Below are positions 2,509 through 57,321 of a DNA stretch of 64,000 bases, in pieces. The translations under genes were made by a program, and so were the position numbers. This DNA comes from an uncultured Chryseobacterium sp. (GTDB lineage Bacteria; Bacteroidota; Bacteroidia; Flavobacteriales; Weeksellaceae). The DNA lies in NCBI GenBank assembly GCA_913778085.1, contig CAJYXJ010000040.1, positions 1-64,000 on the forward strand, read 5' to 3'. Every line of letters starts with the position of its first letter. Position 1 is the first letter of the stretch. The notes under the pieces are model-generated. The model did not search any database. It had not been told where the DNA came from and saw nothing but the letters and a program-made list of their open reading frames with translations.

Positions 2509-5034
2509 ATGTTAATTAATACCTCCAGATATTACCTCCTCTTTTTTTTACTGTTTTTTACCGGATGGGTGTATGCACAAAATACAGCCAGCGGAAGAAT
2601 TGTTGACGGGAAAACGAATAAGCCGGTCAGCGGTGTAGATATCTTCATCAATGAAAGTGATAAACCTGCTTTAACAACAACTTCAGGGAATTTTACGCTG
2701 CAGTCTGACACCATAATTTATAAATTAAAATTTTTAAGAAAAAATTATGCCTTAGAATCCGTAGAAGTAAACCCAGGCAATGCATCAAATATTTTTGTAA
2801 AATTGGCTCAGGAAAAGGTAGGCAGCATCGAGGAAGTCGTTATCCACAACGAAAAGCCGAAATATAAAAATAAAAAGGAAAATCCCGCCTATGCAATCAT
2901 GCAGAAAGTTTGGGAAAGAAAAAGAAACAACGGGCTGGATAAATTCGATACCTATACCTATAAGGAGTATGAGAAGATCCAGTTTGACGCCAATAATCTG
3001 GACAGTGCTTTCATGAAAAGGAAAATCTTCAATAAGCTTGAATTTATTTTCGATTACAAAGACTCCACGGCAAACGGAAAATTAGCGCTTCCGGTATTCT
3101 TGAACGAGGCGGTTTATGAAAATTATGGCGAAAACAGACCGGCGAAAAGGACAAAAAAACTCCTTGTTGCGCAGAAAACTTCCGGCTTCCAGGATAACCA
3201 GATCATTACCCTGACGGCAAAAAACCTATATAGGGACATCAATATTTACAACAATACGCTGAATTATTTTGATATCGGCTTTCCAAGTCCGGTCGGGGAA
3301 ACCGGGTTCAGCACCTATGATTATAACCTGATCGACACCATTTCGATCCGCGGGGAAGAAGCTTACAAAATCCGCTACCAGCCGAAAAGAACGGAAGTTC
3401 TCGCATTCCAGGGCTATCTGTATATTGATGCCGACAGCTACGCTGTTTTGGGAGCCACCCTCAAATCCACACAGAAAATCAACGTCAATTTCATCAACGG
3501 GATCTCGACAGAACTGGAATATGATAATCCAGACGAGAACACCTTCTTACCCCGAAAGGTGATTACGGAAATTGAGATGACGCCTTTCTCCAAAAAGAAA
3601 ACAGCCAAAAGCATCGTTGCAAAGCGCACTGTAGATTATTCTGAATATCAGTTCAACAAACCGTTAGAAGATAAAATTTTTAAAAGGCAGGAAGAGGAAT
3701 ATGAAGATAAATTCGTAGAAAAAGACGATGCCTACTGGGTTAAAGCCAGGCCGGATTCCTTATCTAAAAGCGAGCAGGGCGTTTATGAAATGCTGGACAA
3801 GCTTCAGCAGACCCCGAAATTCAACAGGATTGTAAAGCTTTACGAAACACTCGCATCCGGTTATTATCATGTTGGCAATGCAATAGATTTGGGGCCAATT
3901 TTTTCGGTCTACGGAAAAAATGAAGTGGAAGGCGACCGGATCAGGATCGGAGCAAGAACCTACTTTACCCGGAATGACCCTTGGAGACTGCAGTTTTACA
4001 CTGCGTACGGATTTAAAGACCATCAGGTAAAATATGGAGCTGAAGCACGGTATATGTTCAACAGGGTAAACCGCTTTACCATCGGCGCCGGAACGAGAAG
4101 AGACATTCTCCAGCTTGGGGTTCAGCTGACCAATGATGACGGAATTATGGCCAGGACTTTTGCTTCCTCCACTATTTTTGCCAGAGGGGAAAACGCCTCT
4201 TTAAGCTCGGTAAACCAGACCAATATATTTACATCCATCGAACCCTGGAAAAACTTCCAGATCAGACTGGACGGGACCATGCAAAGCATTAAATCTGCCA
4301 ATCCATCAGGTTTTAATCTGATGTATTACAAAAACGGAGACCTGAGAAAAACGACCAATGATTCACATTTTACGTTAAGCCTGATTGCAAGGCCGGGTGC
4401 CAAATTCTCACAAACCGGATTGGACCGGACTGAACATGGAACCCTTGCACCGACAATCGTTTTAAAATATACCAAAGGAGTGGAAGGACTATTCGGATCG
4501 GATTTTAACTATAATAAATTGCAGTTCCTATTCTATAAACCGATTCTGATTGGAAGCTGGGGTAAATTAATGCTGAACTTTGAAGCCGGGAAAAATTTCG
4601 ATACCGTCCCGTTGGCTTTACAGAATGTAATCCCGGGAAACCAATCATACAGTCTGGCGCAGAATACTTTCGCCCAGCTTAATTATTATGAATTCGTTGC
4701 AGATACTTACACCACGCTTCATTTGGAACACCATTTTAACGGGAAAATCCTTTCGTTTATTCCTTTGATCAAGAAATTAAAACTAAGGGAAATTGCATTT
4801 ATCCGGGGCGCATACGGAACTCTAAGTGATGCCTCAAAAGCTATTAATGTAGAAGGATTTAAATATTCGGCACCCAGCGAGCATATCTATTATGAATACG
4901 GCTTTGGGATCGAGAATATCGGCTTCGGAAACCTCCGGATCTTTAGGGTAGACTTTAACTGGCGGGGAAATTATCTGGACCGGCCGGATATATCAACTTT
5001 CGGCGTAAAAGCAGGATTCCAGGTTAATTTTTAA
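2509..5034 (+). CDS. DUF5686 outer-membrane protein with carboxypeptidase-regulatory-like domain
   Basis: An 841-residue protein with an N-terminal signal peptide (hydrophobic to about residue 22, cleavage after VYAQ), then a carboxypeptidase-regulatory-like beta-sandwich (GRIVDGKTNKPVSGVDIFI, about residues 28-105) as in many TonB-linked Bacteroidetes proteins, then the long DUF5686 region predicted to form an outer-membrane beta barrel ending in an aromatic terminus (GFQVNF). It has no plug domain, so it is not a standard TonB-dependent receptor. The gene is monocistronic, closed by a strong terminator. The family is common in Bacteroidetes and its substrate is unknown. Confidence 0.85.
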   Translation: MLINTSRYYLLFFLLFFTGWVYAQNTASGRIVDGKTNKPVSGVDIFINESDKPALTTTSGNFTLQSDTIIYKLKFLRKNYALESVEVNPGNASNIFVKLAQEKVGSIEEVVIHNEKPKYKNKKENPAYAIMQKVWERKRNNGLDKFDTYTYKEYEKIQFDANNLDSAFMKRKIFNKLEFIFDYKDSTANGKLALPVFLNEAVYENYGENRPAKRTKKLLVAQKTSGFQDNQIITLTAKNLYRDINIYNNTLNYFDIGFPSPVGETGFSTYDYNLIDTISIRGEEAYKIRYQPKRTEVLAFQGYLYIDADSYAVLGATLKSTQKINVNFINGISTELEYDNPDENTFLPRKVITEIEMTPFSKKKTAKSIVAKRTVDYSEYQFNKPLEDKIFKRQEEEYEDKFVEKDDAYWVKARPDSLSKSEQGVYEMLDKLQQTPKFNRIVKLYETLASGYYHVGNAIDLGPIFSVYGKNEVEGDRIRIGARTYFTRNDPWRLQFYTAYGFKDHQVKYGAEARYMFNRVNRFTIGAGTRRDILQLGVQLTNDDGIMARTFASSTIFARGENASLSSVNQTNIFTSIEPWKNFQIRLDGTMQSIKSANPSGFNLMYYKNGDLRKTTNDSHFTLSLIARPGAKFSQTGLDRTEHGTLAPTIVLKYTKGVEGLFGSDFNYNKLQFLFYKPILIGSWGKLMLNFEAGKNFDTVPLALQNVIPGNQSYSLAQNTFAQLNYYEFVADTYTTLHLEHHFNGKILSFIPLIKKLKLREIAFIRGAYGTLSDASKAINVEGFKYSAPSEHIYYEYGFGIENIGFGNLRIFRVDFNWRGNYLDRPDISTFGVKAGFQVNF

Positions 5035-5040
5035 AATATA

Positions 5041-5068
5041 AACTCCTTCGCTTTGAAGGAGTTTTTTT
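5041..5068 (+). terminator. Rho-independent terminator of the DUF5686 gene
   Basis: Stem ACTCCTTC / GAAGGAGT with loop GCTTT followed by seven T. Confidence 0.9.
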
Positions 5069-5085
5069 AGTTAGTTTTATTGGAC

Positions 5086-5253
5086 CTAACAATTACAAGG
5101 TTCATCGACTACAGCATTTAAACAATGTTCTTTTTGCCATGTCTTCCAGGTACACCATTGTGCACACCAGTTTGCCGGCGGTGGGCAATAATTCCCTACT
5201 CCTTCGTTAATTTCTCTCAGATTTCTCTTCGTTAGTTTTTTCAGATTTTTCGT
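5086..5253 (-). pseudogene. Bacteriocin-like leader peptide gene with ACG in place of ATG (55 codons)
   Basis: The minus strand encodes KNLKKLTKRNLREINEG followed by a Cys/Trp-rich core with six cysteines (CPPPANWC, AQWCTW, ending EPCNC) and a TAG. The N-terminus matches the Chryseobacterium bacteriocin-like leader type seen also at 25269-25538 and 25759-25923. At the expected start, 5251-5253, the codon reads ACG. The spacing from the conserved upstream element to this codon (17 nt) is identical to that in the 25.5-kb gene, where the codon is ATG. The gene has therefore probably lost its start by a single T-to-C change, unless ACG is used inefficiently. The core frame is otherwise intact. 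Confidence 0.7.
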
Positions 5254-5270
5254 AAATATTTGTTTTGTTT

Positions 5271-5297
5271 TTTTCCTACTCTATTATTGCTTTTCGG
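5271..5297 (-). promoter_or_regulatory. Conserved 5' leader element, copy 1
   Basis: On the minus strand CCGAAAAGC (5289-5297), a 6-nt spacer, then AGAGTAGGAAAA (5271-5282). The same two blocks with a 4-nt spacer precede the peptide gene at 25538. It may be a ribosome-binding or RNA-structure element, or simply shared ancestry of the two peptide loci. Confidence 0.5.
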
Positions 5298-5328
5298 CAT
5301 CCGCAGGATATTGATTATTTGATAGTTC

Positions 5329-5336
5329 CAAATATA
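5329..5336 (-). promoter_or_regulatory. Candidate -7 element for the 5.1-kb peptide gene
   Basis: Minus-strand TATATTTG fits TAnnTTTG exactly. It lies about 75 nt upstream of the ACG codon and would place the conserved leader element inside the transcript. Confidence 0.5.
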
Positions 5337-5391
5337 TAAATATTTCCCTCTGTATTGACTAGTTATGAAAAATTTAACTTTCCTGAATAGG

Positions 5392-5424
5392 GATAAAAAA
5401 AAACCTCAGCAGATGCTAAGGTTT
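5392..5424 (-). terminator. Terminator of the rplU-rpmA operon
   Basis: On the minus strand AAACCTTAGC-ATCT-GCTGAGGTTT is followed by a run of T, just past the rpmA stop. Confidence 0.8.
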
Positions 5425-5446
5425 TGTTTTTTATAAAACGCTGAAA

Positions 5447-5704
5447 TTATGCGTTTGCTTCTACAGATACAAAAGATCTGTTGTTTGCTTTCTTTCTGAA
5501 AACTACTTTACCGTCTACCAAAGCGAACAAAGTGTGGTCTTTACCGATACCCACGTTTGCACCCGGGTGGTGTTGTGTACCTCTTTGTCTAACGATGATG
5601 TTTCCGGCAATAGCCTCCTGACCACCGAAAATCTTTACTCCTAATCTTTTGGAGTGAGATTCTCTACCGTTCTTGGAACTACCAACTCCTTTCTTATGTG
5701 CCAT
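5447..5704 (-). CDS. rpmA: 50S ribosomal protein L27
   Basis: At 85 residues it has normal length and the diagnostic N-terminus [16 protein letters not shown] followed by [24 protein letters not shown]27 sits at the peptidyl-transferase centre of the large subunit, where its N-terminal tail helps to place the tRNA ends. There is no N-terminal extension of the kind cleaved in Firmicutes. It is the second gene of an rplU-rpmA operon, 28 bp after rplU, and is followed by a terminator. Confidence 0.97.
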
Positions 5705-5732
5705 TTTATTTTAAGGTTTTTTGGTTTTACAA

Positions 5733-6122
5733 TTATTCTGCGCTTTCAGTTGCTTCAGCGTCAGCTTTTTTAGTTGTCTTTTTAGCAGGCTTTTCTGCTT
5801 TCTGAGCTCCTTCAAATCCTGTAATACCAGTGATCTGAATCTGAGTTAAAGATTGTCTGTGTCCGTTTTTCACTTTGTAACCTTTTCTTCTTTTCTTTTT
5901 GAAAACGATTACTTTATCAGCTTTTACGTGATCCAGGATCTCTGCTTCTACAGTGATTCCGCTTACAGCTGGGGCGCCTACCGTGATTGCTCCGTTTACA
6001 GTAAGAAGTACTTTATCGAAAGATACTTTACCTCCTTTGTCTCCTGCTAAACGGTTTACAAACAGCTTTTGGTCTTGCTCAACTTTGTATTGAAGCCCTG
6101 CTATTTCTACAATTGCAAACAT
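5733..6122 (-). CDS. rplU: 50S ribosomal protein L21 with an acidic/lysine-rich C-terminal tail
   Basis: Residues 1-100 are a standard L21 (MFAIVEIAGLQYKV, then FKKKRRKGYKVKNGHRQ, ITGI), a 23S-rRNA-binding protein of the large subunit. The 129-residue length includes a 25-30 residue tail of alternating Lys/Ala/Glu (KPAKKTTKKADAEATE), longer than the enterobacterial protein but common in Flavobacteriia. It heads the rplU-rpmA operon and has a well-formed promoter at 6154-6185. Confidence 0.97.
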   Translation of the reverse strand: MFAIVEIAGLQYKVEQDQKLFVNRLAGDKGGKVSFDKVLLTVNGAITVGAPAVSGITVEAEILDHVKADKVIVFKKKRRKGYKVKNGHRQSLTQIQITGITGFEGAQKAEKPAKKTTKKADAEATESAE

Positions 6123-6153
6123 TGTTTATAAGATTTTTAGTTATTTCGAGGTG

Positions 6154-6185
6154 CAAATATAAGAAATATTTTCTAATCCACTCAA
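6154..6185 (-). promoter_or_regulatory. Promoter of the rplU-rpmA operon
   Basis: Minus-strand TATATTTG (6154-6161) matches the -7 element, with TTG (6183-6185) 21 bp upstream, the classic flavobacterial layout. The predicted 5' leader is about 25 nt. Confidence 0.75.
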
Positions 6186-6302
6186 ATTCAACCTAATCTT
6201 TTTTTAAAATAAAAAATTAACTATGTTTTGAATAATTTATCACAATAAAGTGATATGTTGTAACGTTAAAATGAATAACTTCGTCAGACAAAATATTTAT
6301 AT

Positions 6303-7190
6303 ATGAAAAGAAACTTCTCTTTCCCGATTCTATTGGGAGCAATTGCTGCACTCTCATTATCAGCATGTAACGACGACACCATGGACACTCCCGTACAGCC
6401 AGAACAGCAGACGGAGAACCTGAAAATCGACCAGCCCAACGCACTGGAAAAAGTATGTTATTACGTAGACCAGTACTGGAGTTCCTCTTCTGTGTTACTG
6501 ACTTCACTGCAAAATTCCACGGATACGAACTTCATGAATTCCCAGATGACTAAAATTGCAAGCATGTGGGGTAGAAGCAACCCAACGCTACGATTTGTGA
6601 ACGATCCGTCAAATTACAATTCGACCTATAATGCGATTTCATATTCCACCGGAAAAATCTATTACGGTTATGCAATCTATTATGATGCAAAATCAAAAGG
6701 CGGAGACATTGTCAATGCGATGATCCTTGCCCATGAATACGGGCACCAGCTGCAATACATCTTCGGACTTCCTTCCGTAACCGAATCTACGGCAAGACCG
6801 AATGAGCTGGAGGCTGACGGATTTGCAGGATATTACCTGAGAAGACCGAATGGCTACAACCAAACCAGTTTCACACAGATTGCTGCAGCCTACGAATTCG
6901 CCCAGAGCATCGGGGACTATCAGACCAACAGCGCGGGGCATCACGGTACACCGCCACAAAGAAGATCGGCCGTGCGTTTGGGATTTCTTTTAGGCCAGTA
7001 TGATCTTACGGCATCAGCATTCGACTATAACTTTTTCTATTATTATCAGGGCGTCCTTAACGGAACCTATAAAATGGCGAAAAATTCAAAGTACCCTGAA
7101 CTTGATGCCTATATGAAACCGTATCTGGATGAAATTAAAAAACTTCAGACCGGCGAAATTTCTGCTGAAGAGTTTAAAAACCTACAGTAA
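6303..7190 (+). CDS. Lipoprotein neutral zinc metallopeptidase
   Basis: A 295-residue protein with a lipoprotein signal (hydrophobic helix ending LSLSACNDD, lipobox Cys at about residue 22), so it is expected on the membrane surface. The catalytic signature AHEYGHQLQ (HExxH, about residue 145) is followed by ELEADGFAGYYL, whose Glu would be the third zinc ligand. This matches the bacterial neutral zinc metallopeptidase (YpfJ-like) group. A later GHHGTPPQRRSAVRLGF block is also typical of that group. The gene stands alone with a terminator downstream; its substrate is unknown. Confidence 0.82.
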   Translation: MKRNFSFPILLGAIAALSLSACNDDTMDTPVQPEQQTENLKIDQPNALEKVCYYVDQYWSSSSVLLTSLQNSTDTNFMNSQMTKIASMWGRSNPTLRFVNDPSNYNSTYNAISYSTGKIYYGYAIYYDAKSKGGDIVNAMILAHEYGHQLQYIFGLPSVTESTARPNELEADGFAGYYLRRPNGYNQTSFTQIAAAYEFAQSIGDYQTNSAGHHGTPPQRRSAVRLGFLLGQYDLTASAFDYNFFYYYQGVLNGTYKMAKNSKYPELDAYMKPYLDEIKKLQTGEISAEEFKNLQ

Positions 7191-7216
7191 TCATCATTTT
7201 TGAAATATCTTTTCTT

Positions 7217-7250
7217 GAGAGGCAGGGCATGGTCCCTGTCTCTTTTTATT
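7217..7250 (+). terminator. Terminator of the metallopeptidase gene
   Basis: GAGAGGCAGGG / CCCTGTCTC imperfect stem with a short loop and a T-rich tail. Confidence 0.75.
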
Positions 7251-7276
7251 TATCCTGAAAATTCATAAAGTTTATT

Positions 7277-7284
7277 TACTTTTG
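7277..7284 (+). promoter_or_regulatory. -7 element that decides the acyltransferase start
   Basis: TACTTTTG matches TAnnTTTG. It overlaps a possible TTG start at 7282, which would therefore lie at or before the transcript start, so the ATG at 7303 is preferred. Confidence 0.55.
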
Positions 7285-7302
7285 AAACCTCATCCACAAG
7301 CA

Positions 7303-8397
7303 ATGAAAAGAGACCTCTATATTGATTTCGCAAAAGGAATGGCCACCCTTTCCATTATATTCATTCATACTGCATTCTGGTCGGGACAGTTTTATATACT
7401 GCCTGAGATCAGGATCTTTTCCCTGGTTTTCGATGTTGCCTTATTCTATGCACTGAGCGGAATTACATCGGGCTCAAATATCGAGAAAACATTTTACCGG
7501 CTCCTGAAACTGCAGATTACCTACATGATTTTCGTAACGCTGCTTTTCTTCCTGGATTATTTCTTTAAGGTGTTCGGGCTTACTTTTTTCTCATTGGAAT
7601 GGCTGCAGAATTTCTATTCCACTTTCGGATCCAAATACGCAGTTACCAGCATTTCCACCGTCCCGCAATGGGAAAATCTGGGAAACTGGTATCTTCACCA
7701 GTACACCAATGCGGATACATTTCCGGTGGTAATGGGCAGTTTCTGGTATCTGAAGGTTTACTATATCTTAACCGTTTTCGGAGTTTTAATTCTGAGATTT
7801 TTTTCGAAGCATATTTATTGGTTTATAGGACTGTGTGCTGCTCTAACTCTGTTATTTAATATCTTCCCGGAAATTTATCCTTCGGGACAGGTGGGCTATA
7901 TAACTTTTTATATGACGGTTTTTCTGGTAGGCAACAGAATGAGAGGGAAAAAGATTCCTGTAAAAGCCATCCCCGTTCTCTATGCGGCTGTAGCAGCAGC
8001 ACTGATCGGAATGTTCTCATTTTATGGGAATGAGATTTTCTTTAAAATCAGCAAATATAAGTTTCCACCCCAAATGCCCTACATTATCTGGACCTTATTC
8101 TCTTTGGTAACACTTTTCGTTTTCTACAACAGATTAAAGGTCACAAAAGAGAATTTTGTGACCTATATAGGCAGAAATGCTATATTTTTCTATTTCGGGC
8201 AAGGCATCAGTTCCTCTCTAATTTACTTTCTAGTAGTTCCTATGAAAGAAAGCATGCCCTGGTGGGTTTTAATGATTCTGATTTATGGTATAAATATCAC
8301 CCTGGCCTTCATCGTTTCAGCCGGTCTGAAAAAAGTGGATGAAGCAGGCTGGAAAACCCTGGCATTCCTAAAAAGAAAAACAGCTGCTGAAAATTAA
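7303..8397 (+). CDS. Acyltransferase-3-like integral membrane protein
   Basis: A 364-residue polytopic protein with about ten hydrophobic segments. Its N-terminus, DLYIDFAKGMATLSIIFIHTAF, resembles the acyltransferase-3 (OafA/WecH-like) opening 'iD..kg.ai..V...H', including the His expected in the active site. Members O-acylate extracellular polysaccharides or other surface molecules. No second domain was seen. The gene converges with the small membrane-protein gene that follows (4-bp overlap of the stops). The substrate cannot be told. Confidence 0.7.
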   Translation: MKRDLYIDFAKGMATLSIIFIHTAFWSGQFYILPEIRIFSLVFDVALFYALSGITSGSNIEKTFYRLLKLQITYMIFVTLLFFLDYFFKVFGLTFFSLEWLQNFYSTFGSKYAVTSISTVPQWENLGNWYLHQYTNADTFPVVMGSFWYLKVYYILTVFGVLILRFFSKHIYWFIGLCAALTLLFNIFPEIYPSGQVGYITFYMTVFLVGNRMRGKKIPVKAIPVLYAAVAAALIGMFSFYGNEIFFKISKYKFPPQMPYIIWTLFSLVTLFVFYNRLKVTKENFVTYIGRNAIFFYFGQGISSSLIYFLVVPMKESMPWWVLMILIYGINITLAFIVSAGLKKVDEAGWKTLAFLKRKTAAEN

Positions 8398-48549: not shown

Positions 48550-49554
48550 ATGAGTTACGAAATATTAATAATTTCTCAGTATCATTTTGAAGATACAACT
48601 GATGAAATTTGCAATTGGCTATATCACTTAGAAGCCAATTTTATTAGATTAAATATTGAAGAATTATATAATCCTAAATTATATTCTGTTTTTTCAAATT
48701 TAGAAGACAGTACTTTACATATCTTTGATAAGAGGAGACAAGAATCAATTGACTTATCAAAAATAAAAGTTGGTTGGTGCAGAAGATTTACATTCAAATC
48801 ATATTTTTTGGATTTAAAAAAAGATAATTCAAGTGCAAACTCTGAAACTCTATCTAAATTTATTTCTTCTGAAATAAATATTTTTCTAAAATCTATATTT
48901 GATTTTTATCCGCAAATACAATGGTTTGATTATTATAAAAATATTTTGGCAATAGATAAACTTGATGTTTTAAAAAAAGCTAGGAAAAATGGTCTTCTAA
49001 TACCCGAAACATATATTTCTAACGAGAGCGCTCCTGTCAAAAATCTATTAAAAGAAAAATCATTAATCACAAAACCCATTGGCGAAGTTTCGTATTTTGA
49101 TGATGATAAAAACAAAGGCACATATATGTCACACACTCAGGAAGTAAAATACATTAATGGGGAATTTACACCCTCGCTCTTTCAGGTGAAAATTGACAAA
49201 AAAATAGAGATAAGAACTTTTGTCCTAGGAGATGATTTTTATTCTATGGCAATATTTTCGTCTAATAATAAAAAAACTGCTGTTGATTTTAGAAAGTACG
49301 ATTTTCGTAAACCAAATAGAAGAATTCCATATCAGCTACCAAAAAATATTGAAGATAATCTAAAAAAATTAATGAATGAATTATCTCTAAAAACAGGATC
49401 AGTAGATTTAATTCTGGATCAAAATGATAATTATTATTTTTTGGAAGTTAATCCTATCGGTCAATTTGGAATGGTATCATATCCTTGTAATTATAATTTA
49501 GAAAAAAAAGTGGCTCATTTTCTTATAGAAGAATTAGAAAAATTAAAAATATAA
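48550..49554 (+). CDS. gwsG: ATP-grasp peptide ligase, grasp-with-spasm system
   Basis: A 334-residue ATP-grasp protein like the MvdD/microviridin ligases. The N-terminal region (ILIISQYHFEDTTDE, WCRRFTF) is the substrate-facing part; the ATP-grasp core has LLKEKSLITKPIGE, VKIDKKIEIRTFVLGDDFYS, and the metal-binding LEVNPIGQFGM near the C-terminus. It would form ester/amide bridges in the precursor at 48307. Its stop overlaps the small ORF by 1 bp. Part of a very AT-rich cluster. Confidence 0.9.
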   Translation: MSYEILIISQYHFEDTTDEICNWLYHLEANFIRLNIEELYNPKLYSVFSNLEDSTLHIFDKRRQESIDLSKIKVGWCRRFTFKSYFLDLKKDNSSANSETLSKFISSEINIFLKSIFDFYPQIQWFDYYKNILAIDKLDVLKKARKNGLLIPETYISNESAPVKNLLKEKSLITKPIGEVSYFDDDKNKGTYMSHTQEVKYINGEFTPSLFQVKIDKKIEIRTFVLGDDFYSMAIFSSNNKKTAVDFRKYDFRKPNRRIPYQLPKNIEDNLKKLMNELSLKTGSVDLILDQNDNYYFLEVNPIGQFGMVSYPCNYNLEKKVAHFLIEELEKLKI

Positions 49555-49742
49555 TGGATTCATTTAAAAAATTAACAAAAAAAAATCTAGTACCGTTTAT
49601 TCTAAAAGAGCCTGAAAAAATCTTTATGAAAAACTCTGAATTAAGCCCAAATGATGCGCATAGACACGTAAAAGGTAGTTTATTCAATAATTCAGGAGTT
49701 ACAGTTAATTACGGTTTTTATAAAAACATTACAAAATTTTGA
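49554..49742 (+). CDS. Small translationally coupled protein between the two maturases (62 aa)
   Basis: No family recognised. The start shares a base with the ATP-grasp stop (TAATG), and its own stop overlaps the start of the SPASM gene by 4 bp (TTGA). Such double overlap is good evidence of translation as a separate gene. The product is basic and Asn-rich (SLFNNSGVTVNYGFYKNITKF in part, NNSGVTVNYGFYKN) with no cysteine and no signal. It might help substrate recognition, but this is inference only. Confidence 0.6.
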   Translation: MDSFKKLTKKNLVPFILKEPEKIFMKNSELSPNDAHRHVKGSLFNNSGVTVNYGFYKNITKF

Positions 49743-50827
49743 AAAAATATTATAAATTATTCCCTTCCCTAATTCCGGTAAAAGGTTATCTTAGATCGCT
49801 TCTACTTGATCCAAGTAGAGATAACTTCTATTTTATTCCTAATGACTTACATGAAATAATTTCCAAAGATTTTATTGATGTTGATAAACTTTACGAAGAA
49901 CATCCTGATGACATTGCAATTATTGATGAATATATTCAGTTTTTAACTAAAAATGAATTGCTTTTTGAAGTTTCTTTAGATGATGAACCTTTTTTTCCAA
50001 AACTGAATAAAAATTGGGAAACACCTTTCCAGATAACCAATATGGTTATAGATATTGGAAACTACGAAATACAAAAAGATAAATTTTCTTTTGAAATAGG
50101 AAAACTTGGAGTGAATACTTTAGAGATAAGAGTTTTTGATTTAAAATATTTAGAATATACAGATCATTTTATTTCTTTTTTAAGTAAGGAAAACAGGGTT
50201 AATCGCCTAAAAAATATTCAGATTAATATTTCAGTCAACAATCAATCTTTATCAAGATTACAAAGAAAAATAATACTTATGTTAGCAACAAAGCCTATTA
50301 TAAGTGGTATTACAATATTTAGTCTCAATACGTTACTACAATTGGAAAATGAAAAAATTCATATTATCGAGAAAAACGTATTAAATGAAAAAGATTGTGG
50401 AGTCATCGATAATAATATAAGTTTTTTAACAAGAAATTTAATTTTTGAATCAATGTCTTACAATTCATGCCTAAATTGTAAGCTTTCCATTGATTCCGAT
50501 GGAAATATTAAAAATTGCCCTTCTATGTCTAGATCATTTGGTAAAATAAATGATAAAAACCTAGATGAAATTACTCAAGCCCCCGATTTTAAAAAATATT
50601 GGAATATTTCGAAAGATTCAATTGAAGTATGCAAAGATTGTGAATTCAGATATATCTGTACAGATTGTAGAGCCTATACAGAAAGAACTCATGTAGATAA
50701 AAATAATTTTGATTTGTCTAAACCCCTTAAATGTAGTTATGATCCTTATACGGGTAATTTAAATCCATGGACAAAAGATGAATCTAAAAAAAATAGTATT
50801 GAATTCTACAATCTAAATAATCTTTAA
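49739..50827 (+). CDS. gwsS: SPASM-domain maturase, grasp-with-spasm system
   Basis: A 362-residue protein beginning with TTG (MKKYYKLFPSLIPVKGY). The C-terminal third is a SPASM domain with its cysteines in NSCLNCKLS, NCPSM, EVCKDCEFRYICTDC and LKCSY. The N-terminal two-thirds has only one Cys (about residue 221) and no CxxxCxxC, so the radical SAM cluster motif is absent although the length equals that of a radical SAM/SPASM enzyme. It probably assists the ATP-grasp ligase instead of doing radical chemistry. Last gene of the cluster. Confidence 0.85.
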   Translation: MKKYYKLFPSLIPVKGYLRSLLLDPSRDNFYFIPNDLHEIISKDFIDVDKLYEEHPDDIAIIDEYIQFLTKNELLFEVSLDDEPFFPKLNKNWETPFQITNMVIDIGNYEIQKDKFSFEIGKLGVNTLEIRVFDLKYLEYTDHFISFLSKENRVNRLKNIQINISVNNQSLSRLQRKIILMLATKPIISGITIFSLNTLLQLENEKIHIIEKNVLNEKDCGVIDNNISFLTRNLIFESMSYNSCLNCKLSIDSDGNIKNCPSMSRSFGKINDKNLDEITQAPDFKKYWNISKDSIEVCKDCEFRYICTDCRAYTERTHVDKNNFDLSKPLKCSYDPYTGNLNPWTKDESKKNSIEFYNLNNL

Positions 50828-51562: not shown

Positions 51563-52372
51563 CTAATTGTCGGCAAATTCTTCCGTCGCATTCGCACCAC
51601 CGTAAGTTTCAACAATATGGACGGTAGCTACTTTTAATGTTTTTCCATTTTCCGGATGCTCCCCGTAATTGGTAAAAAATTCTACATGGCTGTTGCTTTT
51701 ATCATACCAGACCTTTCCTACTGCATTTTCAATCGTCAGCGTGTCCGGTCTAGTTATTTTTTTCTGATAGACAAATTTGTTCGGTTCCATCGGCACTACC
51801 TCAATCTGAGGATTGATATAACTGCTGTCGCTGGCTATATAGCGGTCTTTATCCCAATACATATAGGGTTTCTCGATAGCAGGCGTTCCCCAAAGTGATG
51901 CAATTCCTAAAGCTTGTTTTTTGCCACTGGAAAATACAACTCCCCCAGAAACTAAAAGTATCACAAAAGCCATTTCTACAATACCCATCCCATTTTTCTT
52001 TAGAAAATCAGGCATAGTAAAAATTGGCTTGTTAATTATTGTAATAATAATTTTAGAAATTGCCTGCTGAATTGTATGTTCAATAGTTTTCCATTCAGCA
52101 CAATATTCATTAAAGTTATTATATCCTAAATATCTGCTTAAATCATCTAAAACTACATGTTTTGTAGGATAATCACTTTCTTCTTTAACAATTGCTTTAT
52201 AATAATTTTCAATTGTTTTATAACTTAAAGTAATTCTGTGTTCATCCCGCAAGACAACTTCCAGATTTTTTAAAATCGCACTAAAAGAGGTATCAGTAGT
52301 TGCATTAGAGGCTTTTTCATATACTTCTTCTAATAGTCGTTTTTTCTCGGGTAAAAATTTTGACATACGCAT
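51563..52372 (-). CDS. Membrane protein of the two-component/peptide locus, unknown family (269 aa)
   Basis: No family recognised. The N-terminal half is cytosolic and helical (KKRLLEEVYEKASNATTD, TLSYKTIENYYKAIVKEE) and contains a Tyr-rich DDLSRYLGYNNFNEYCAEW. A single membrane helix (VEMAFVILLVSGGVVF) follows, then a 110-residue extracytoplasmic C-terminus rich in beta strands. Starts at 52372 and 52366 are both plausible. The 5' half of the gene is much more AT-rich than the 3' half. Its promoter carries the same dyad as the response-regulator and peptide promoters, so it is probably controlled by them. Role unknown. Confidence 0.7.
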   Translation of the reverse strand: MRMSKFLPEKKRLLEEVYEKASNATTDTSFSAILKNLEVVLRDEHRITLSYKTIENYYKAIVKEESDYPTKHVVLDDLSRYLGYNNFNEYCAEWKTIEHTIQQAISKIIITIINKPIFTMPDFLKKNGMGIVEMAFVILLVSGGVVFSSGKKQALGIASLWGTPAIEKPYMYWDKDRYIASDSSYINPQIEVVPMEPNKFVYQKKITRPDTLTIENAVGKVWYDKSNSHVEFFTNYGEHPENGKTLKVATVHIVETYGGANATEEFADN

Positions 52373-52387
52373 GATTATTATTCGTTC

Positions 52388-52432
52388 GAAAATTATAAAG
52401 AATTCAATCAATAGCATTACGGTTTTCCGTAC
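52388..52432 (-). promoter_or_regulatory. Dyad operator and -7 of the divergent membrane-protein gene (site 3)
   Basis: Plus-strand TTACG-GTTTTC-CGTAC (52417-52432); read on the minus strand it nearly equals site 2, with the outermost base altered. A minus-strand -7-like TAATTTTC (52388-52395, seven of eight) lies exactly 21 bp away, the same spacing as in sites 1 and 2. Confidence 0.65.
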
Positions 52433-52441
52433 ATCTCACTG

Positions 52442-52474
52442 AAAAACTTTCCAAAAACTTTCCAAAAACTTTCT
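52442..52474 (+). repeat. Three 11-bp tandem repeats upstream of the small peptide gene
   Basis: AAAAACTTTCC three times in perfect register (last copy ends in T). One repeat per helical turn suggests a row of binding sites for a DNA-bound regulator. A -7-like TACTTTG sits at 52499-52505. Confidence 0.7.
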
Positions 52475-52587
52475 AACCCTTGCCCTTCCTTTCGCCGTTA
52501 CTTTGCCATAGAAATCAGTGAGAAACAAACAATTAAAACAAAAGACAAAACCAAAGTTACAAAACTGATTTCAAAAATCGCCAGATA

Positions 52588-52712
52588 AAACGGAAGAAAA
52601 GATCCGGGTTGGGAAGCAGATGTTTCTCTTCCGTTTTTGAAGGTTCACTTCCCAAAAAAATTTAAGAAGCGCTTCGAAATTTTTAATCGTGTACAGCCTG
52701 GGATAAACCCGG
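52588..52712 (+). ncRNA. Structured leader upstream of the small peptide gene
   Basis: Three complementary pairs are interleaved: AAACGGAAGA (52588-52597) with TCTTCCGTTT (52627-52636); TTGGGAAG (52609-52616) with CTTCCCAA (52648-52655); CCGGGTT (52604-52610) with AACCCGG (52706-52712). The first two give an H-type pseudoknot with loops of 11, 10 and 11 nt, or two alternative hairpins. A further AT-rich hairpin lies at 52656-52684. No known RNA family was recognised. Confidence 0.5.
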
Positions 52713-52752
52713 GAGGAAGAAAAATATTTCAAAATCTCAAATTTTTTTAAAA

Positions 52753-52965
52753 ATGTTAGACTTAATATTGATGCTAATCGCTTTAGCATTCGGGAATAAT
52801 AATGCCAATACGCAATCTTGCAACAACGATAATAATGGGACAACAACCGTCCAACTTACTAATCCGGGAACGGGCACTGACCCGGGCACCGGAACTGATC
52901 CGGGAACAGGAGGTTCAGGTGGAGATACGGGAGGAGATACAATACCATTTCCACCAAAAAAATAA
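52753..52965 (+). CDS. Small peptide with hydrophobic start and TDPGTG repeats (70 aa)
   Basis: The N-terminus MLDLILMLIALAFG is a short membrane-like helix, followed by NNNANTQSCNNDNN and a repeated Thr-Asp-Pro-Gly-Thr-Gly (three times) with a Gly-rich stretch and the end IPFPPKK. It has one cysteine. It follows a long structured leader and a tandem-repeat promoter, and precedes the sensor kinase gene behind a terminator. It could be an exported signal peptide or an anchored linker peptide; neither is shown by sequence. An overlapping frame from 52802 was rejected. Confidence 0.6.
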   Translation: MLDLILMLIALAFGNNNANTQSCNNDNNGTTTVQLTNPGTGTDPGTGTDPGTGGSGGDTGGDTIPFPPKK

Positions 52966-52976
52966 CAATAATAATG

Positions 52977-53011
52977 GAAGGGAAAATTAATTTTCCCTTC
53001 TTTTATTTTTT
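52977..53011 (+). terminator. Terminator of the small peptide gene
   Basis: GAAGGGAAAATT / AATTTTCCCTTC followed by TTTTATTTTTT. Confidence 0.88.
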
Positions 53012-53039
53012 AGCTAAGTTTATAAAATTTCTTTTATAA

Positions 53040-54704
<1,665 letters not shown>

Positions 54705-54714
54705 CCGTTTTGTT

Positions 54715-55377
54715 ATGTTTAAAAAAGCTCTAATCGTTGAAGACCAGGAAGTCGCCAACCTGGGCATTCTACGGAATCTGGAGGAACTATTGATTCCCCA
54801 TTGTGAATTGGCAACCCATTGTGATGAAGCCCTGCAAAGGCTGAAAACCGCAGCTGCAGAAAATAAGCCGTACGACCTGCTGATCGCCGACCTCTCTTTT
54901 CAAAAGGATCATGTACGCCAGCACCTGAAAAACGGACAGGAGCTGATCCGGGAAGCGAGAAAAATCCAGCCCGAACTTAAAGTCGTGGTGTTCTCCGTAG
55001 AAAAACGGGCCAGGATCATCGACGATCTTTATAAAACCTACTGCATCAACGGGTTTGTAAGCAAAGCCCGGAATGACGGGAAAGAGCTCCGAAACACCAT
55101 CCGGAAAGTTTTTAAAGGAGAAACCGTGATGTCGCAGGAAATTCTGAATGCCATCCGGAATATCCCCTCCGCGCTGGATGCTTATGACCTCAAACTGCTG
55201 GAGCTTCTAGCCAGAGGTTCCAAGCAGAACGAAATTCAGACTTACCTGAAAGAACACACGATGCAGCCCTACAGCATCCGCTCGATCGAAAAGAGACTGA
55301 ATGAACTTCGCGACAGTTTCGGTGCAAAAAATAACATCGAAATGATTGTCATCTGCAAAGATATCGGCCTGATCTGA
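54715..55377 (+). CDS. Response regulator with C-terminal HTH, copy 1
   Basis: A 220-residue regulator. The receiver has the acidic pair in IVEDQEVAN, the phospho-acceptor Asp in YDLLIADLSF, and the Lys in GFVSKARND. The C-terminal part DLKLLELLARGSKQNEIQ and SIRSIEKRLNELRDSF is a LuxR-type DNA-binding helix-turn-helix. It follows the kinase by 10 bp and is paralogous to the regulator at 55494. It probably acts on the dyads TTACG-N6-CGTAA found at 52.4, 55.4 and 56.2 kb; this is an inference. Confidence 0.9.
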   Translation: MFKKALIVEDQEVANLGILRNLEELLIPHCELATHCDEALQRLKTAAAENKPYDLLIADLSFQKDHVRQHLKNGQELIREARKIQPELKVVVFSVEKRARIIDDLYKTYCINGFVSKARNDGKELRNTIRKVFKGETVMSQEILNAIRNIPSALDAYDLKLLELLARGSKQNEIQTYLKEHTMQPYSIRSIEKRLNELRDSFGAKNNIEMIVICKDIGLI

Positions 55378-55412
55378 TTTTAAAAGCCGGAATTGCCTGT
55401 TTTTCGCCGTTT

Positions 55413-55457
55413 TTACGTGAACCCGTAATGCAGGAATGATAAATGCATTTACTTTTG
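55413..55457 (+). promoter_or_regulatory. Dyad operator and promoter of the second response regulator (site 1)
   Basis: TTACG-TGAACC-CGTAA (55413-55428), 21 bp, then -7 TACTTTTG (55450-55457). No -33 TTG is present, so an activator bound to the dyad may replace it. The preceding sequence also shares GCCG and a T run with site 2. Confidence 0.75.
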
Positions 55458-55493
55458 AGGTCTTAACCTATTTTTTAACTAAACCGTATAACC

Positions 55494-56159
55494 ATGTTCA
55501 AAAAAATTTTAATTGCCGAAGATCACGAAAGCATCAATATTTCCGTCCAGAAAACCCTGGAAGATCTGAACGTTCCGAAAGTAGACTACGTATACTACTG
55601 CGATGATGCGATTGGGAAAATCCGGAAAGCCCTGCGGGAAGAACAGCCCTACGATCTGTTGATCACCGATCTTTATTATGAAGAGGACCATCATACCCAA
55701 AATCTCAAAGACGGCAAAGATCTCATCCGGAGAGCAAAAGAACTGCAGCCCGATCTGAAAGTAATCGTCTTCTCCGCTGAACGCAAAACCGGCGTCATCG
55801 AAAATCTCTTTTCCGATTATCATATCAACGGCTATGTGGGGAAAGCCAGAAACGATTCCAAAGATTTAAAAAAATCCATCGCTTCCGTATATATCGGTGA
55901 AAATTATCTTTCCTTCGACCTGAAGCAGGAGATGAAAAAATTCAACAATTACGAATTTTCCACCTACGACATTGTGATCGTTTCCCTGCTCTCCAAAGGC
56001 GTCCTGCAAAAAAACATTCCGGCCCACCTGGAGGAGAAAAGCATCCGTCCTTCCAGCCTCAGCAGCGTCGAGAAAAGACTCAACAGCCTGAAAGAAGACC
56101 TCAGCGTCAACAGCAACGAGCAGCTGGTCGCCTTCTGCAAGGACCTCGGGATTATCTGA
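55494..56159 (+). CDS. Response regulator with C-terminal HTH, copy 2
   Basis: A 221-residue paralogue of the regulator at 54715. Shared features are the acidic pair in IAEDHESIN, the phospho-acceptor in YDLLITDLYYEED, FSAERKTGVIENLF, GYVGKARNDS and the HTH with SSVEKRLNSLKEDL. Unlike copy 1 it has its own promoter with the dyad operator, giving a feed-forward or self-reinforcing arrangement. A terminator follows. Confidence 0.9.
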   Translation: MFKKILIAEDHESINISVQKTLEDLNVPKVDYVYYCDDAIGKIRKALREEQPYDLLITDLYYEEDHHTQNLKDGKDLIRRAKELQPDLKVIVFSAERKTGVIENLFSDYHINGYVGKARNDSKDLKKSIASVYIGENYLSFDLKQEMKKFNNYEFSTYDIVIVSLLSKGVLQKNIPAHLEEKSIRPSSLSSVEKRLNSLKEDLSVNSNEQLVAFCKDLGII

Positions 56160-56180
56160 AACCATCCATTTTACTTACAG

Positions 56181-56208
56181 CCTTTCAAGTTTTTTGAAAG
56201 GGTTTTTT
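56181..56208 (+). terminator. Terminator of the second response regulator
   Basis: CCTTTCAA / TTGAAAGG with a short T-rich loop and a long T-rich tail. Confidence 0.85.
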
Positions 56209-56222
56209 ATTTTTTGCCGGTT

Positions 56223-56267
56223 TTACGGAAACCCGTAAAAATTACTCATTAAAGGGTGATACTTTTG
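56223..56267 (+). promoter_or_regulatory. Dyad operator and promoter of the small-peptide operon (site 2)
   Basis: TTACG-GAAACC-CGTAA (56223-56238), 21 bp, then -7 TACTTTTG (56260-56267). The geometry is identical to site 1, with no -33 TTG. Confidence 0.78.
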
Positions 56268-56293
56268 GAAGGTAAAACAAAATAAATAATAGT

Positions 56294-56443
56294 ATGAACG
56301 TAAAACACACTCCAACAGACATTGTCCATAAAGGAAAAGAAGGTGGAACAACCGGATGCGGAACAGACACCAAAGTACATCCCACCCATTGGACCAACAC
56401 TAACGCTTCCATTACCTGCGACAAAAACGGATGTAAAAATTAA
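56294..56443 (+). CDS. Small peptide with Gly-Gly and three cysteines (49 aa)
   Basis: A 49-residue frame that starts MNVKHTPTDIVHKGKEGG, with a Gly-Gly at 17-18 and cysteines at 22, 42 and 47; the core contains PTHWTNTNASITCDKNGC. The promoter (site 2) is directly upstream and there is no terminator before the next gene. It could be a leader-type peptide cut after Gly-Gly, but it lacks the MKNLKKL-type leader of the other peptides here. It heads an operon with two secreted proteins. No homologue was recognised. Confidence 0.6.
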   Translation: MNVKHTPTDIVHKGKEGGTTGCGTDTKVHPTHWTNTNASITCDKNGCKN

Positions 56444-56461
56444 ATTTAAAATCAAATTACC

Positions 56462-56776
56462 ATGAAAAAATTCCTATTTACGGGCCTGCTAAGTGTCGGG
56501 CTTTTATTACCGGCAAGTATTTCTGCCACCACCCATGATACCGGTTCAAAAACTGAGCTCTCATCTAAAAAACCCAGGAAAGGCAGAAAAAGTTCACGCA
56601 GCAAAAATACGAAAAGTTACAGTTCTGCAAGAGTATCAAGAGCTTATTCCCCAAGCAGCAACAGCTGTAATTACAATGGGCACCAACTTTATACAGGCGA
56701 AAGAGGTGGCTGTTATTATTACTCCGGGAACAGCAAAAAATATGTAGACCGAGCCTACTGTTCAGGATGCAACTAG
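56462..56776 (+). CDS. Secreted small protein with a PBCV-type basic adaptor-like C-terminus (104 aa)
   Basis: Signal peptide MKKFLFTGLLSVGLLLPASISA, then a Lys/Arg/Ser-rich linker (KKPRKGRKSSRSKN), and a C-terminal module GHQLYTGERGGCYYYSG...KKYVDRAYCSGC that resembles the small PBCV-specific basic adaptor domain ('tGpRGGcYy...KkYVdr..C'). It has four cysteines, two of which close the module. Middle gene of the dyad-controlled operon. Function unknown. Confidence 0.68.
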   Translation: MKKFLFTGLLSVGLLLPASISATTHDTGSKTELSSKKPRKGRKSSRSKNTKSYSSARVSRAYSPSSNSCNYNGHQLYTGERGGCYYYSGNSKKYVDRAYCSGCN

Positions 56777-56799
56777 AAAAATGAATTAAACCGATAACC

Positions 56800-57321
56800 A
56801 TGAAAAAACTAATATCTTTCATCATAATAACTTTCAGTGCATTTATCTTAAATTCATGTTTTAAGGCCAACGACAACGTAGGCCATGACGGTAGATGCAC
56901 CGGATCTGCCTACTGTTCTGCCTGTACCAACTGCTCAAGGTGCGGGCATTGCGGCAGCGGCGGAACCTGCGGGGTCTGTGGCGGCGGATCTTCCGAAAGC
57001 AGTTCGTCTTACGGAAGCTCTTCCAGAAAAAGCAGGCATAAAAAACGCACAATGTCAAAAGTTCATAGGACAACGGAATCCAAAACCCGCCATGTTCCCA
57101 TTGATGAAGTGAATATAAATACAGGAGCTGGCAAAAGATACCTTGCAGGCGTAGATGCCGCTGTAACCATTTATGAAAAACCGGCATTTAAATCCAACGT
57201 GGTTGCCACTGTAACAGGAAATACAAAGCTTATTGAACTATCGAAGAAAGGCGAATGGTATAAAGTACAGGTGAAATCAAGTGGTAAAAAAGGGTATGTT
57301 TACTATAAGAATATAAGATAA
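56800..57321 (+). CDS. Lipoprotein with Cys-rich motif and C-terminal SH3-like domain (173 aa)
   Basis: A lipoprotein signal (FIIITFSAFILNSCFK, Cys near residue 20) is followed by a Cys/Gly-rich stretch, RCTGSAYCSACTNCSRCGHC, with closely spaced cysteines suggestive of metal or disulphide binding, a Ser-rich linker (SSESSSSYGSSSRKS), and an SH3-type domain (YEKPAFKSNVVATV, GEWYKVQVKSSGKKGYVY) of the kind that binds cell wall or peptides. Last gene of the operon with the 49-residue peptide. Function unknown. Confidence 0.78.
   Translation: MKKLISFIIITFSAFILNSCFKANDNVGHDGRCTGSAYCSACTNCSRCGHCGSGGTCGVCGGGSSESSSSYGSSSRKSRHKKRTMSKVHRTTESKTRHVPIDEVNINTGAGKRYLAGVDAAVTIYEKPAFKSNVVATVTGNTKLIELSKKGEWYKVQVKSSGKKGYVYYKNIR

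Follow-up and report, generated by a model that had tools for sequence, protein, structure and literature searches.

What is controlled by a two-component locus that carries the same inverted repeat at three of its own promoters? The locus in question occupies positions 51563-57321 of a 64,000-nucleotide stretch (the window) from an uncultured Chryseobacterium sp. (assembly GCA_913778085.1, contig CAJYXJ010000040.1, positions 1 to 64,000), and encodes a sensor histidine kinase, two paralogous response regulators (RR1 and RR2), a divergent membrane protein and several small proteins. Its inverted repeat, or dyad, has the form TTACGN6CGTAA. An original prediction took the locus to be self-contained, with the regulators activating all three dyad promoters in a feed-forward circuit whose output includes a Gly-Gly peptide. 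Comparison across genomes points elsewhere. The locus is probably the control centre of a dispersed defence and stress regulon, in which a kinase with tetratricopeptide repeats (TPR) and NarL/FixJ-type regulators would act through the dyad. On the best reading of the genome comparisons, this regulon occurs in Flavobacteriales and some Sphingobacteriales.

Direct reading of the sites bears out the promoters as originally described. Dyad 1 (TTACGTGAACCCGTAA, 55413-55428, plus strand) lies before RR2 and dyad 2 (TTACGGAAACCCGTAA, 56223-56238, plus strand) behind it. Both are exact, and each is followed 21 nt later by the -7 element TACTTTTG (55450-55457 and 56260-56267, plus strand). Dyad 3 (GTACGGAAAACCGTAA, 52417-52432, minus strand) has one mismatch and faces the divergent membrane-protein gene; the -7-like element 21 nt after it (TAATTTTC, 52388-52395, minus strand) is off consensus in its last base. 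Homologues of the membrane-protein gene are preceded by exact dyads in four other loci (L088, L131, L135 and L139). Inside the window alone the number of dyads is only weakly above chance: five sites are present when one mismatch is tolerated, 1.66 would be expected, and 4 of 100 shuffles also reach five. The strength comes from comparison. We set aside near-dyads at two further places, 22073 and 45063, as probable chance matches.

The wider genome (4.63 Mb) contains eight exact copies of TTACGN6CGTAA against three of a reversed control, and six of the tighter form TTACGGN4CCGTAA against none. Six of the eight exact dyads lie outside the locus, which is thus not self-contained, and five of those six have the tighter form. 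One exact loose dyad (C54:15551) lies inside a gene and lacks a good -7 box. Because these distal sites exist, we reject a closed peptide-signalling circuit with a Gly-Gly output, which we consider very improbable. Small peptide genes do follow the dyad promoters of the locus and recur in relatives, as such a circuit would have it. The peptide itself has no family match, and neither an exporter nor a leader peptidase was recognised among the open reading frames (ORFs) of the locus, the rest of the genome not having been searched. The first gene after dyad 2 encodes a Cys-containing peptide of 49 amino acids (56294-56443, plus strand) that matched no Pfam or NCBIfam family, and in relatives its place is taken by a gene of 68-72 codons or by other cassettes. 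The common content of the other dyad promoters is defence and stress-type genes.

The sites at the locus are conserved, as had been anticipated. Among the 30 best RR2 loci in the genus, TTACGN6CGTAA follows the RR2 stop codon in all 30, at 51-73 bp in 29 and at 136 bp in one. A dyad also precedes RR2 in 19 of them (65-68 bp away in 18, 397 bp in one), and a TAYTTTTG-like box stands at the same distance after the dyad in most.

The dyad also follows the regulator from genome to genome. We sampled 247 genomes of the family, calling RR2 homologues at 1e-25 and taking TTACGGN4CCGTAA as the dyad. The regulator is present in 173 and the dyad in 171; 163 genomes have both, 10 the regulator only, 8 the dyad only and 66 neither (Fisher test, p = 8.6e-40). 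Expressed as rates, 163 of the 173 regulator genomes carry the dyad against 8 of the 74 regulator-free ones. Regulator genomes hold 702 dyads against 20 reversed-pattern controls, and the other family genomes 13 against 7; the number of exact dyads per regulator genome ranges from 0 to 14, locus included. Since relatedness inflates the family-wide p-value, two further comparisons were made. Within one mixed genus (g26) the dyad occurs in 12 of 14 genomes with the regulator and 4 of 22 without, and in a sample of the order outside the family the figures are 19 of 22 and 8 of 145 (p = 6e-16). The original prediction had expected the dyad to track the regulators, and had asked whether it might be equally frequent away from their genes. 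The answer depends on scale: within the genome the distant sites count against a closed circuit, and between genomes the dyad follows the regulator.

Individual target genes show the same dependence. An rmuC homologue was found in 27 of 30 chosen genomes. Within 350 bp of it, a dyad with no more than two mismatches stands in 6 of the 14 genomes that have the regulator and in none of the 13 that lack it (p = 0.016). An operon encoding a membrane protein and a GTPase-like protein, present in 30 of 244 genomes, has a dyad with at most one mismatch in 25 of the 28 that carry the regulator and in neither of the two that do not. The lack of any dyad in 20 arbitrary 20-kb regions says little, because only about 0.7 would be expected there at the genome's own density. 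These comparisons bear on the alternative that the dyad belongs to another transcription factor and that the two-component regulators are just one of its targets. The position of the dyad flanking the regulator gene would suit a mere target, and the eight family genomes with dyads and no detected regulator would suit it too. We nevertheless regard this alternative as unlikely: regulator presence predicts dyad presence in two samples, and loss of a target gene would leave the rmuC sites in place, yet none of the 13 regulator-free genomes has them. Inverted repeats are, moreover, what NarL-type regulators typically read.

Promoter geometry was examined in 100 dyads from 15 genomes (part of the dyads of 14 genomes of the genus, and those of the source genome itself). 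Within 52 nt on either side of these dyads there are 57 strict TAnnTTTG boxes, of which 37 start at offset 21 after the dyad, 10 at offset 22, 6 at offsets 20, 23 or 24, and 4 elsewhere. If one mismatch is allowed, 64 boxes fall at offset 21 and 12 at offset 22. Offsets outside 20-24 average 2, and the 3 or 4 boxes at each of offsets 20, 23 and 24 stay within that background range. The Bacteroidetes promoter consensus has TTG at -33 and TAnnTTTG at -7. Counted from this consensus, the dyad centre falls near -40, over the place of the -33 element. None of 52 strict dyad promoters from relatives and the source genome has a TTG 17-21 nt before the -7 box, as the original prediction had noted for the locus; in part this is so because the position is taken up by the dyad itself. 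With its centre near -40 covering the -33 position, no TTG there and a fixed distance to the -7 box, the dyad has the predicted layout of a class-II-type activator site. The fixed spacing and the tie to the regulator also led us to reject the dyad as a terminator or mere repeat.

A second dyad-like element, TCNGTATTTTCNCNGA, was seen beside some dyads. Across 3.3 Mb of fetched loci, six of its seven occurrences lie 49-50 bp (start to start) upstream of a TTACGG dyad (L008:7461, L082:3451, L107:163, L115:3043, L125:3451 and L246:958), and the seventh (L096) is 323 bp away. The window has none, and neither do 400 kb of arbitrary regions. The element may be a second regulator site or a recombination site.

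The kinase (53061-54704, plus strand) combines a TPR region with a HATPase_c domain. The latter scores above its cut-off (1.9e-7), and TPR_12 reaches 29.6 bits against a cut-off of 30.1. The kinase core is NarQ/UhpB/LiaS-like, with scores far under the equivalog cut-offs, and the N-terminus appears lipoprotein-like, with one transmembrane helix; this and the other lipoprotein, membrane and export features of the locus proteins were assigned by reading of the sequence. RR1 (54715-55377, plus strand) and RR2 (55494-56159, plus strand) are NarL/FixJ-like, RR2 matching Response_reg above cut-off (8.3e-9) and RR1 at 28.7 bits against a cut-off of 30.2. We aligned both with 44 of 50 homologues from the pattern-scan stretches described below. 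Across these 46 sequences D10, D59, K117, E193 and K194 are invariant and S190 is invariant or nearly so; the family thus has the acidic pocket, phospho-acceptor Asp and Lys of NarL/FixJ receivers. A profile of the family matches RcsB, VraR and DesR chains, up to position 188 with RcsB and to 213 with DesR. For the C-terminal LuxR-type helix-turn-helix (HTH), no Pfam HTH model matched RR1 or RR2, and the C-terminal 73 residues alone matched nothing. Kinase homologues lie near regulator homologues in many of 20 chosen loci and of the pattern-scan loci, so the pairing is conserved. Three genomes (G001, G046 and G078) have as closest homologue only an RR1-like regulator (60-62% identical to RR1, 44-46% to RR2), and a dyad lies 63-72 bp behind its gene. 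Because these RR1-only genomes carry the dyad there, both paralogues probably read one common site.

Taken as a mechanism, the membrane kinase would sense a cue through its TPR region and phosphorylate RR1 and RR2. Regulator dimers would bind TTACGG-N4-CCGTAA near -40, 21-22 bp before the TAnnTTTG box, and recruit polymerase to promoters that lack a -33 box, activating transcription. The regulators would control their own locus through its three dyads and switch on the dispersed promoters as well. Of the original claim that they activate all three promoters, the part concerning action on the dyad is strongly supported by comparison; binding, phosphorylation and activation rather than repression are what we infer from the domain families and the geometry. 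The cue may be envelope or infection stress, a guess prompted by the apparent export of the TPR domain.

Which genes stand behind the dispersed promoters? From the 100 dyads we left out regulator loci, required that a site not lie inside an ORF (two short ones excepted), and required a TA-anchored box with at least 4 of 6 matches at offsets 20-24. Seventy-four dyads passed, leading to 103 genes in 64 homology clusters. Among the 30 clusters of first genes with 150 amino acids or more, 15 match a PADLOC defence model at 1e-10. Of 64 random genes 3 do so (p = 7.5e-7), and 3 of 59 when the same minimum length is applied (p = 1.7e-6). The controls are 64 of 326 ORFs of at least 100 amino acids from 20 arbitrary regions of six genomes, and their matches, to 25 PADLOC families, all come through three helicase-resembling proteins. 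The matching first genes belong to unrelated systems: type I restriction (L006), SIR2 (L008), RmuC as a DRT-associated protein (L009), PD-Lambda-1 (L061), SngA of Shango (L063), type II methylases (L074, L101), PtuA/PDC-M62A (L075), JetA of Wadjet (L077), a type III methylase (L081), GajA of Gabija (L084), GmrSD-type HEC-06/Orf5 (L095), PDC-M22A (L096), a CBASS endonuclease effector (L111) and IetS (L134).

Taken as one set, the 64 clusters match 227 PADLOC families, with HerA represented by two members and SngB, a cyclase and PDC-M22B by one each; their positions make these probable second genes in the SIR2, SngA, CBASS and PDC-M22A operons. Pfam finds one member each of BrxC_BrxD, DUF3375, DUF4194, SMODS, SAVED, GmrSD_N, DndB, NADAR, bestrophin and RmuC. 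A further GajA and another long gene stand behind a dyad that lacks a usable -7 box (L121) and were left out of the count, and a PLD protein (L066) matches the DrmC model weakly (6.6e-8). Recurrent targets include rmuC, bestrophin and the membrane/GTPase-like operon. In its L005 copy (4083-7451) this patchily distributed operon consists of a membrane protein, a second protein weakly resembling DO-GTPase1 (below cut-off) and a third protein, with no PADLOC match; it is a candidate new defence system.

The same promoter is found well beyond the genus. A scan of named genomes for the dyad followed by N21 and TAnnTTTG returned at least 119 stretches, and the matches listed come from Chryseobacterium, Elizabethkingia, Kaistella, Flavobacterium, Winogradskyella, Tenacibaculum, Pedobacter, Sphingobacterium, Mucilaginibacter and other Bacteroidota. 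A strain of Flavobacterium johnsoniae is represented (L224). The non-Bacteroidota exception among them is a pair of contigs (L181, L211) of one metagenome-assembled genome labelled Bifidobacterium breve. L211 carries a regulator of the RR1/RR2 family as well as the promoter, and the contigs are probably misbinned. For 39 of the 50 complete regulator homologues among the matches listed, a dyad follows the stop codon within 130 bp; this is not an independent rate, because the stretches were chosen for the dyad. The 131 promoters among these matches include 57 with a first ORF of 150 amino acids or more. Fifty of the 57 were scanned, these being the complete ones with regulators left out and related ones kept; ZorB, HamA, IetA, Cas6b, PDC-S24 and cytosine methylase models are among the 25 of 112 matching families listed. 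A Cas9-like gene was recognised by reading at L205. Seventy stretches of viral, prophage-like contigs (L299-L368) also carry the promoter, in some cases, by reading, before XRE/S24-type repressor genes. Because some of the first genes look like such phage repressors, phages may use the host's alarm.

Several points weigh against a regulon centred on defence. Ten family genomes have the regulator without an exact dyad and eight the reverse; the co-occurrence p-values are inflated by relatedness; and many of the 145 genomes of the order that lack the regulator are small or incomplete. The census genomes were chosen by the analyst, part of their dyads was fetched, and 26 of the 100 dyads were dropped by rule before genes were counted. 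Half of the first-gene clusters (15 of 30) have no PADLOC match at 1e-10 (L005, L007, L060, L066, L073, L082, L086, L089, L099, L107, both of L125, L129, L132 and L138). RmuC, the two lone methylases and IetS may be no defence genes, and without them the count is 11 of 30 (p = 2.5e-4 against 3 of 59). The genes behind dyad 2 in the window had no defence match among the Pfam and NCBIfam results, the PADLOC scan not having been applied to them. Many targets beyond Chryseobacterium are small proteins that look exported, and a promoter on prophage-like sequences also fits a general stress regulon.

Such a general regulon is an alternative that we think less probable than not. In it the regulators act on the dyad as part of an envelope or DNA-damage stress response, and defence genes are in excess because new genes often settle under stress promoters. 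The recurrence of rmuC and bestrophin, together with an SbcD-like gene recognised by reading, speaks for it, since these are not dedicated immunity genes; so do the many targets outside Chryseobacterium that look like exported lipoproteins, and the phage genes, repressors and others, found by reading behind the promoter on prophage-like sequences. The enrichment, however, spans many unrelated systems (type I and III restriction-modification, CBASS, Wadjet, Gabija, Shango, SIR2 and Zorya- and Hachiman-type genes), and no recA- or uvrA-type repair gene was recognised when reading the 64 clusters. We keep to a defence and stress regulon controlled from the locus, in which the operons behind the dispersed promoters would be diverse, exchangeable and enriched in defence, and mobile operons could plug in by carrying the 45-bp operator-promoter.

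Exchange of this kind appears to occur at the locus itself. In five sister-species loci (L105, L114, L124, L131 and L135) a 4.5-kb operon with an IetA-like AAA ATPase stands behind the post-RR2 dyad, with an additional dyad after it before peptide or other genes. Alignment of 56101-57321 with L105 and L114 shows that the window lacks this operon. Positions 56101-56280 correspond to the promoter before the operon of L114 (92%), and from 56436 the match resumes 6 kb farther along. The L105 sequence that precedes the operon aligns with 56101-56228 (87.5%), and the stretch from 56211 aligns 4.5 kb beyond it (72%); because the matches split there, the operon junction falls at the dyad. L139 has HSDR_N, DUF1508 and TerB-like genes in the same place (TerB just below cut-off). 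Judging by these junctions and the alternative genes of L139, the dyad promoters of the locus appear to be where cassettes are swapped.

The remaining genes of the locus complete the set originally listed, which proved accurate: a kinase, two receiver-domain regulators, a membrane protein, two small peptides and two Cys-containing proteins. The divergent membrane protein (51563-52372, minus strand, start MRMSKFLP at 52372) is the third dyad-controlled gene of the locus; it matched no Pfam family and has 26 tblastn matches in loci L140-L159 and L180-L368. A low-complexity peptide of 70 amino acids (52753-52965, plus strand) lies upstream of the kinase gene and has homologues at the equivalent position in relatives. 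Behind the 49-residue peptide follow an apparently exported Cys-containing protein of 104 amino acids (56462-56776, plus strand) and a Cys-rich protein of 173 amino acids with an SH3_3 domain above cut-off (1.7e-7; 56800-57321, plus strand). By reading, the locus is flanked on the left by an msrA-like gene and on the right by GNAT-like and EngB-like genes. Just upstream, at 48550-50827, lies a grasp-with-spasm cluster for a ribosomally synthesised and post-translationally modified peptide. Its ATP-grasp (TIGR04192) and SPASM (TIGR04193) maturases both score above curated cut-offs, it has a small precursor-like ORF at 49554-49742, and 48550-50827 contains no exact or one-mismatch dyad.

Two-component regulons are a known kind of system. 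The present one resembles RcsB, VraSR, DesKR and NarXL in its receiver with a predicted C-terminal DNA-binding region, its NarQ/UhpB/LiaS-type HATPase_c kinase and its putative inverted-repeat operator. It differs from NarL/FixJ systems in its TPR sensor region, in a C-terminal domain too divergent for Pfam HTH models and in the abundance of anti-phage systems among its targets. Regulators of the WYL type (BrxR, CapW) and other local ones also control anti-phage systems at the level of transcription, but their genes lie within a single defence system and their action is local, whereas a single two-component system of the chromosome here appears to act on many scattered systems of unrelated kinds. 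The SOS/LexA regulon likewise has scattered single-operator promoters, autoregulation and use by prophages; its targets are different, and the site described here is placed like an activator site near -40 rather than like a repressor operator. In the parts of the source consulted, the Pseudomonas aeruginosa operon PA3040-3042 is a member of an envelope-stress regulon and responds to phage exposure, and its deletion leaves phage tolerance unaffected (PMC11302039). It is alike in linking envelope-stress control to phage, and differs, as far as that source was seen, in having no shared operator before many dedicated defence systems. No description of a TTACGG operator or of a two-component defence regulon was found in the full-text literature covered, which did not extend to subscription papers and preprints; the dispersed immune content is thus what we did not find described.

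It is still largely an open question how bacteria keep many immune systems, each acquired separately, in step. A bolder extension of our reading, to which we give a little less than even credence, is that a single two-component system serves as the master switch of immunity throughout Flavobacteriales and Sphingobacteriales. Dozens of defence systems with no relation to each other, among them CRISPR genes, would be inducible by the same cue through a 45-bp operator-promoter, the regulator locus would be a docking island for cassettes, and prophages would hang genes on the same alarm. If this is true, a short portable operator and a conserved two-component system would be a simple answer to the question for a large bacterial group. 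New defence systems could be found by searching for the 45-bp promoter, the cue of the kinase would become a directly testable question, and many unrelated immune systems would prove to be wired to one common alarm.

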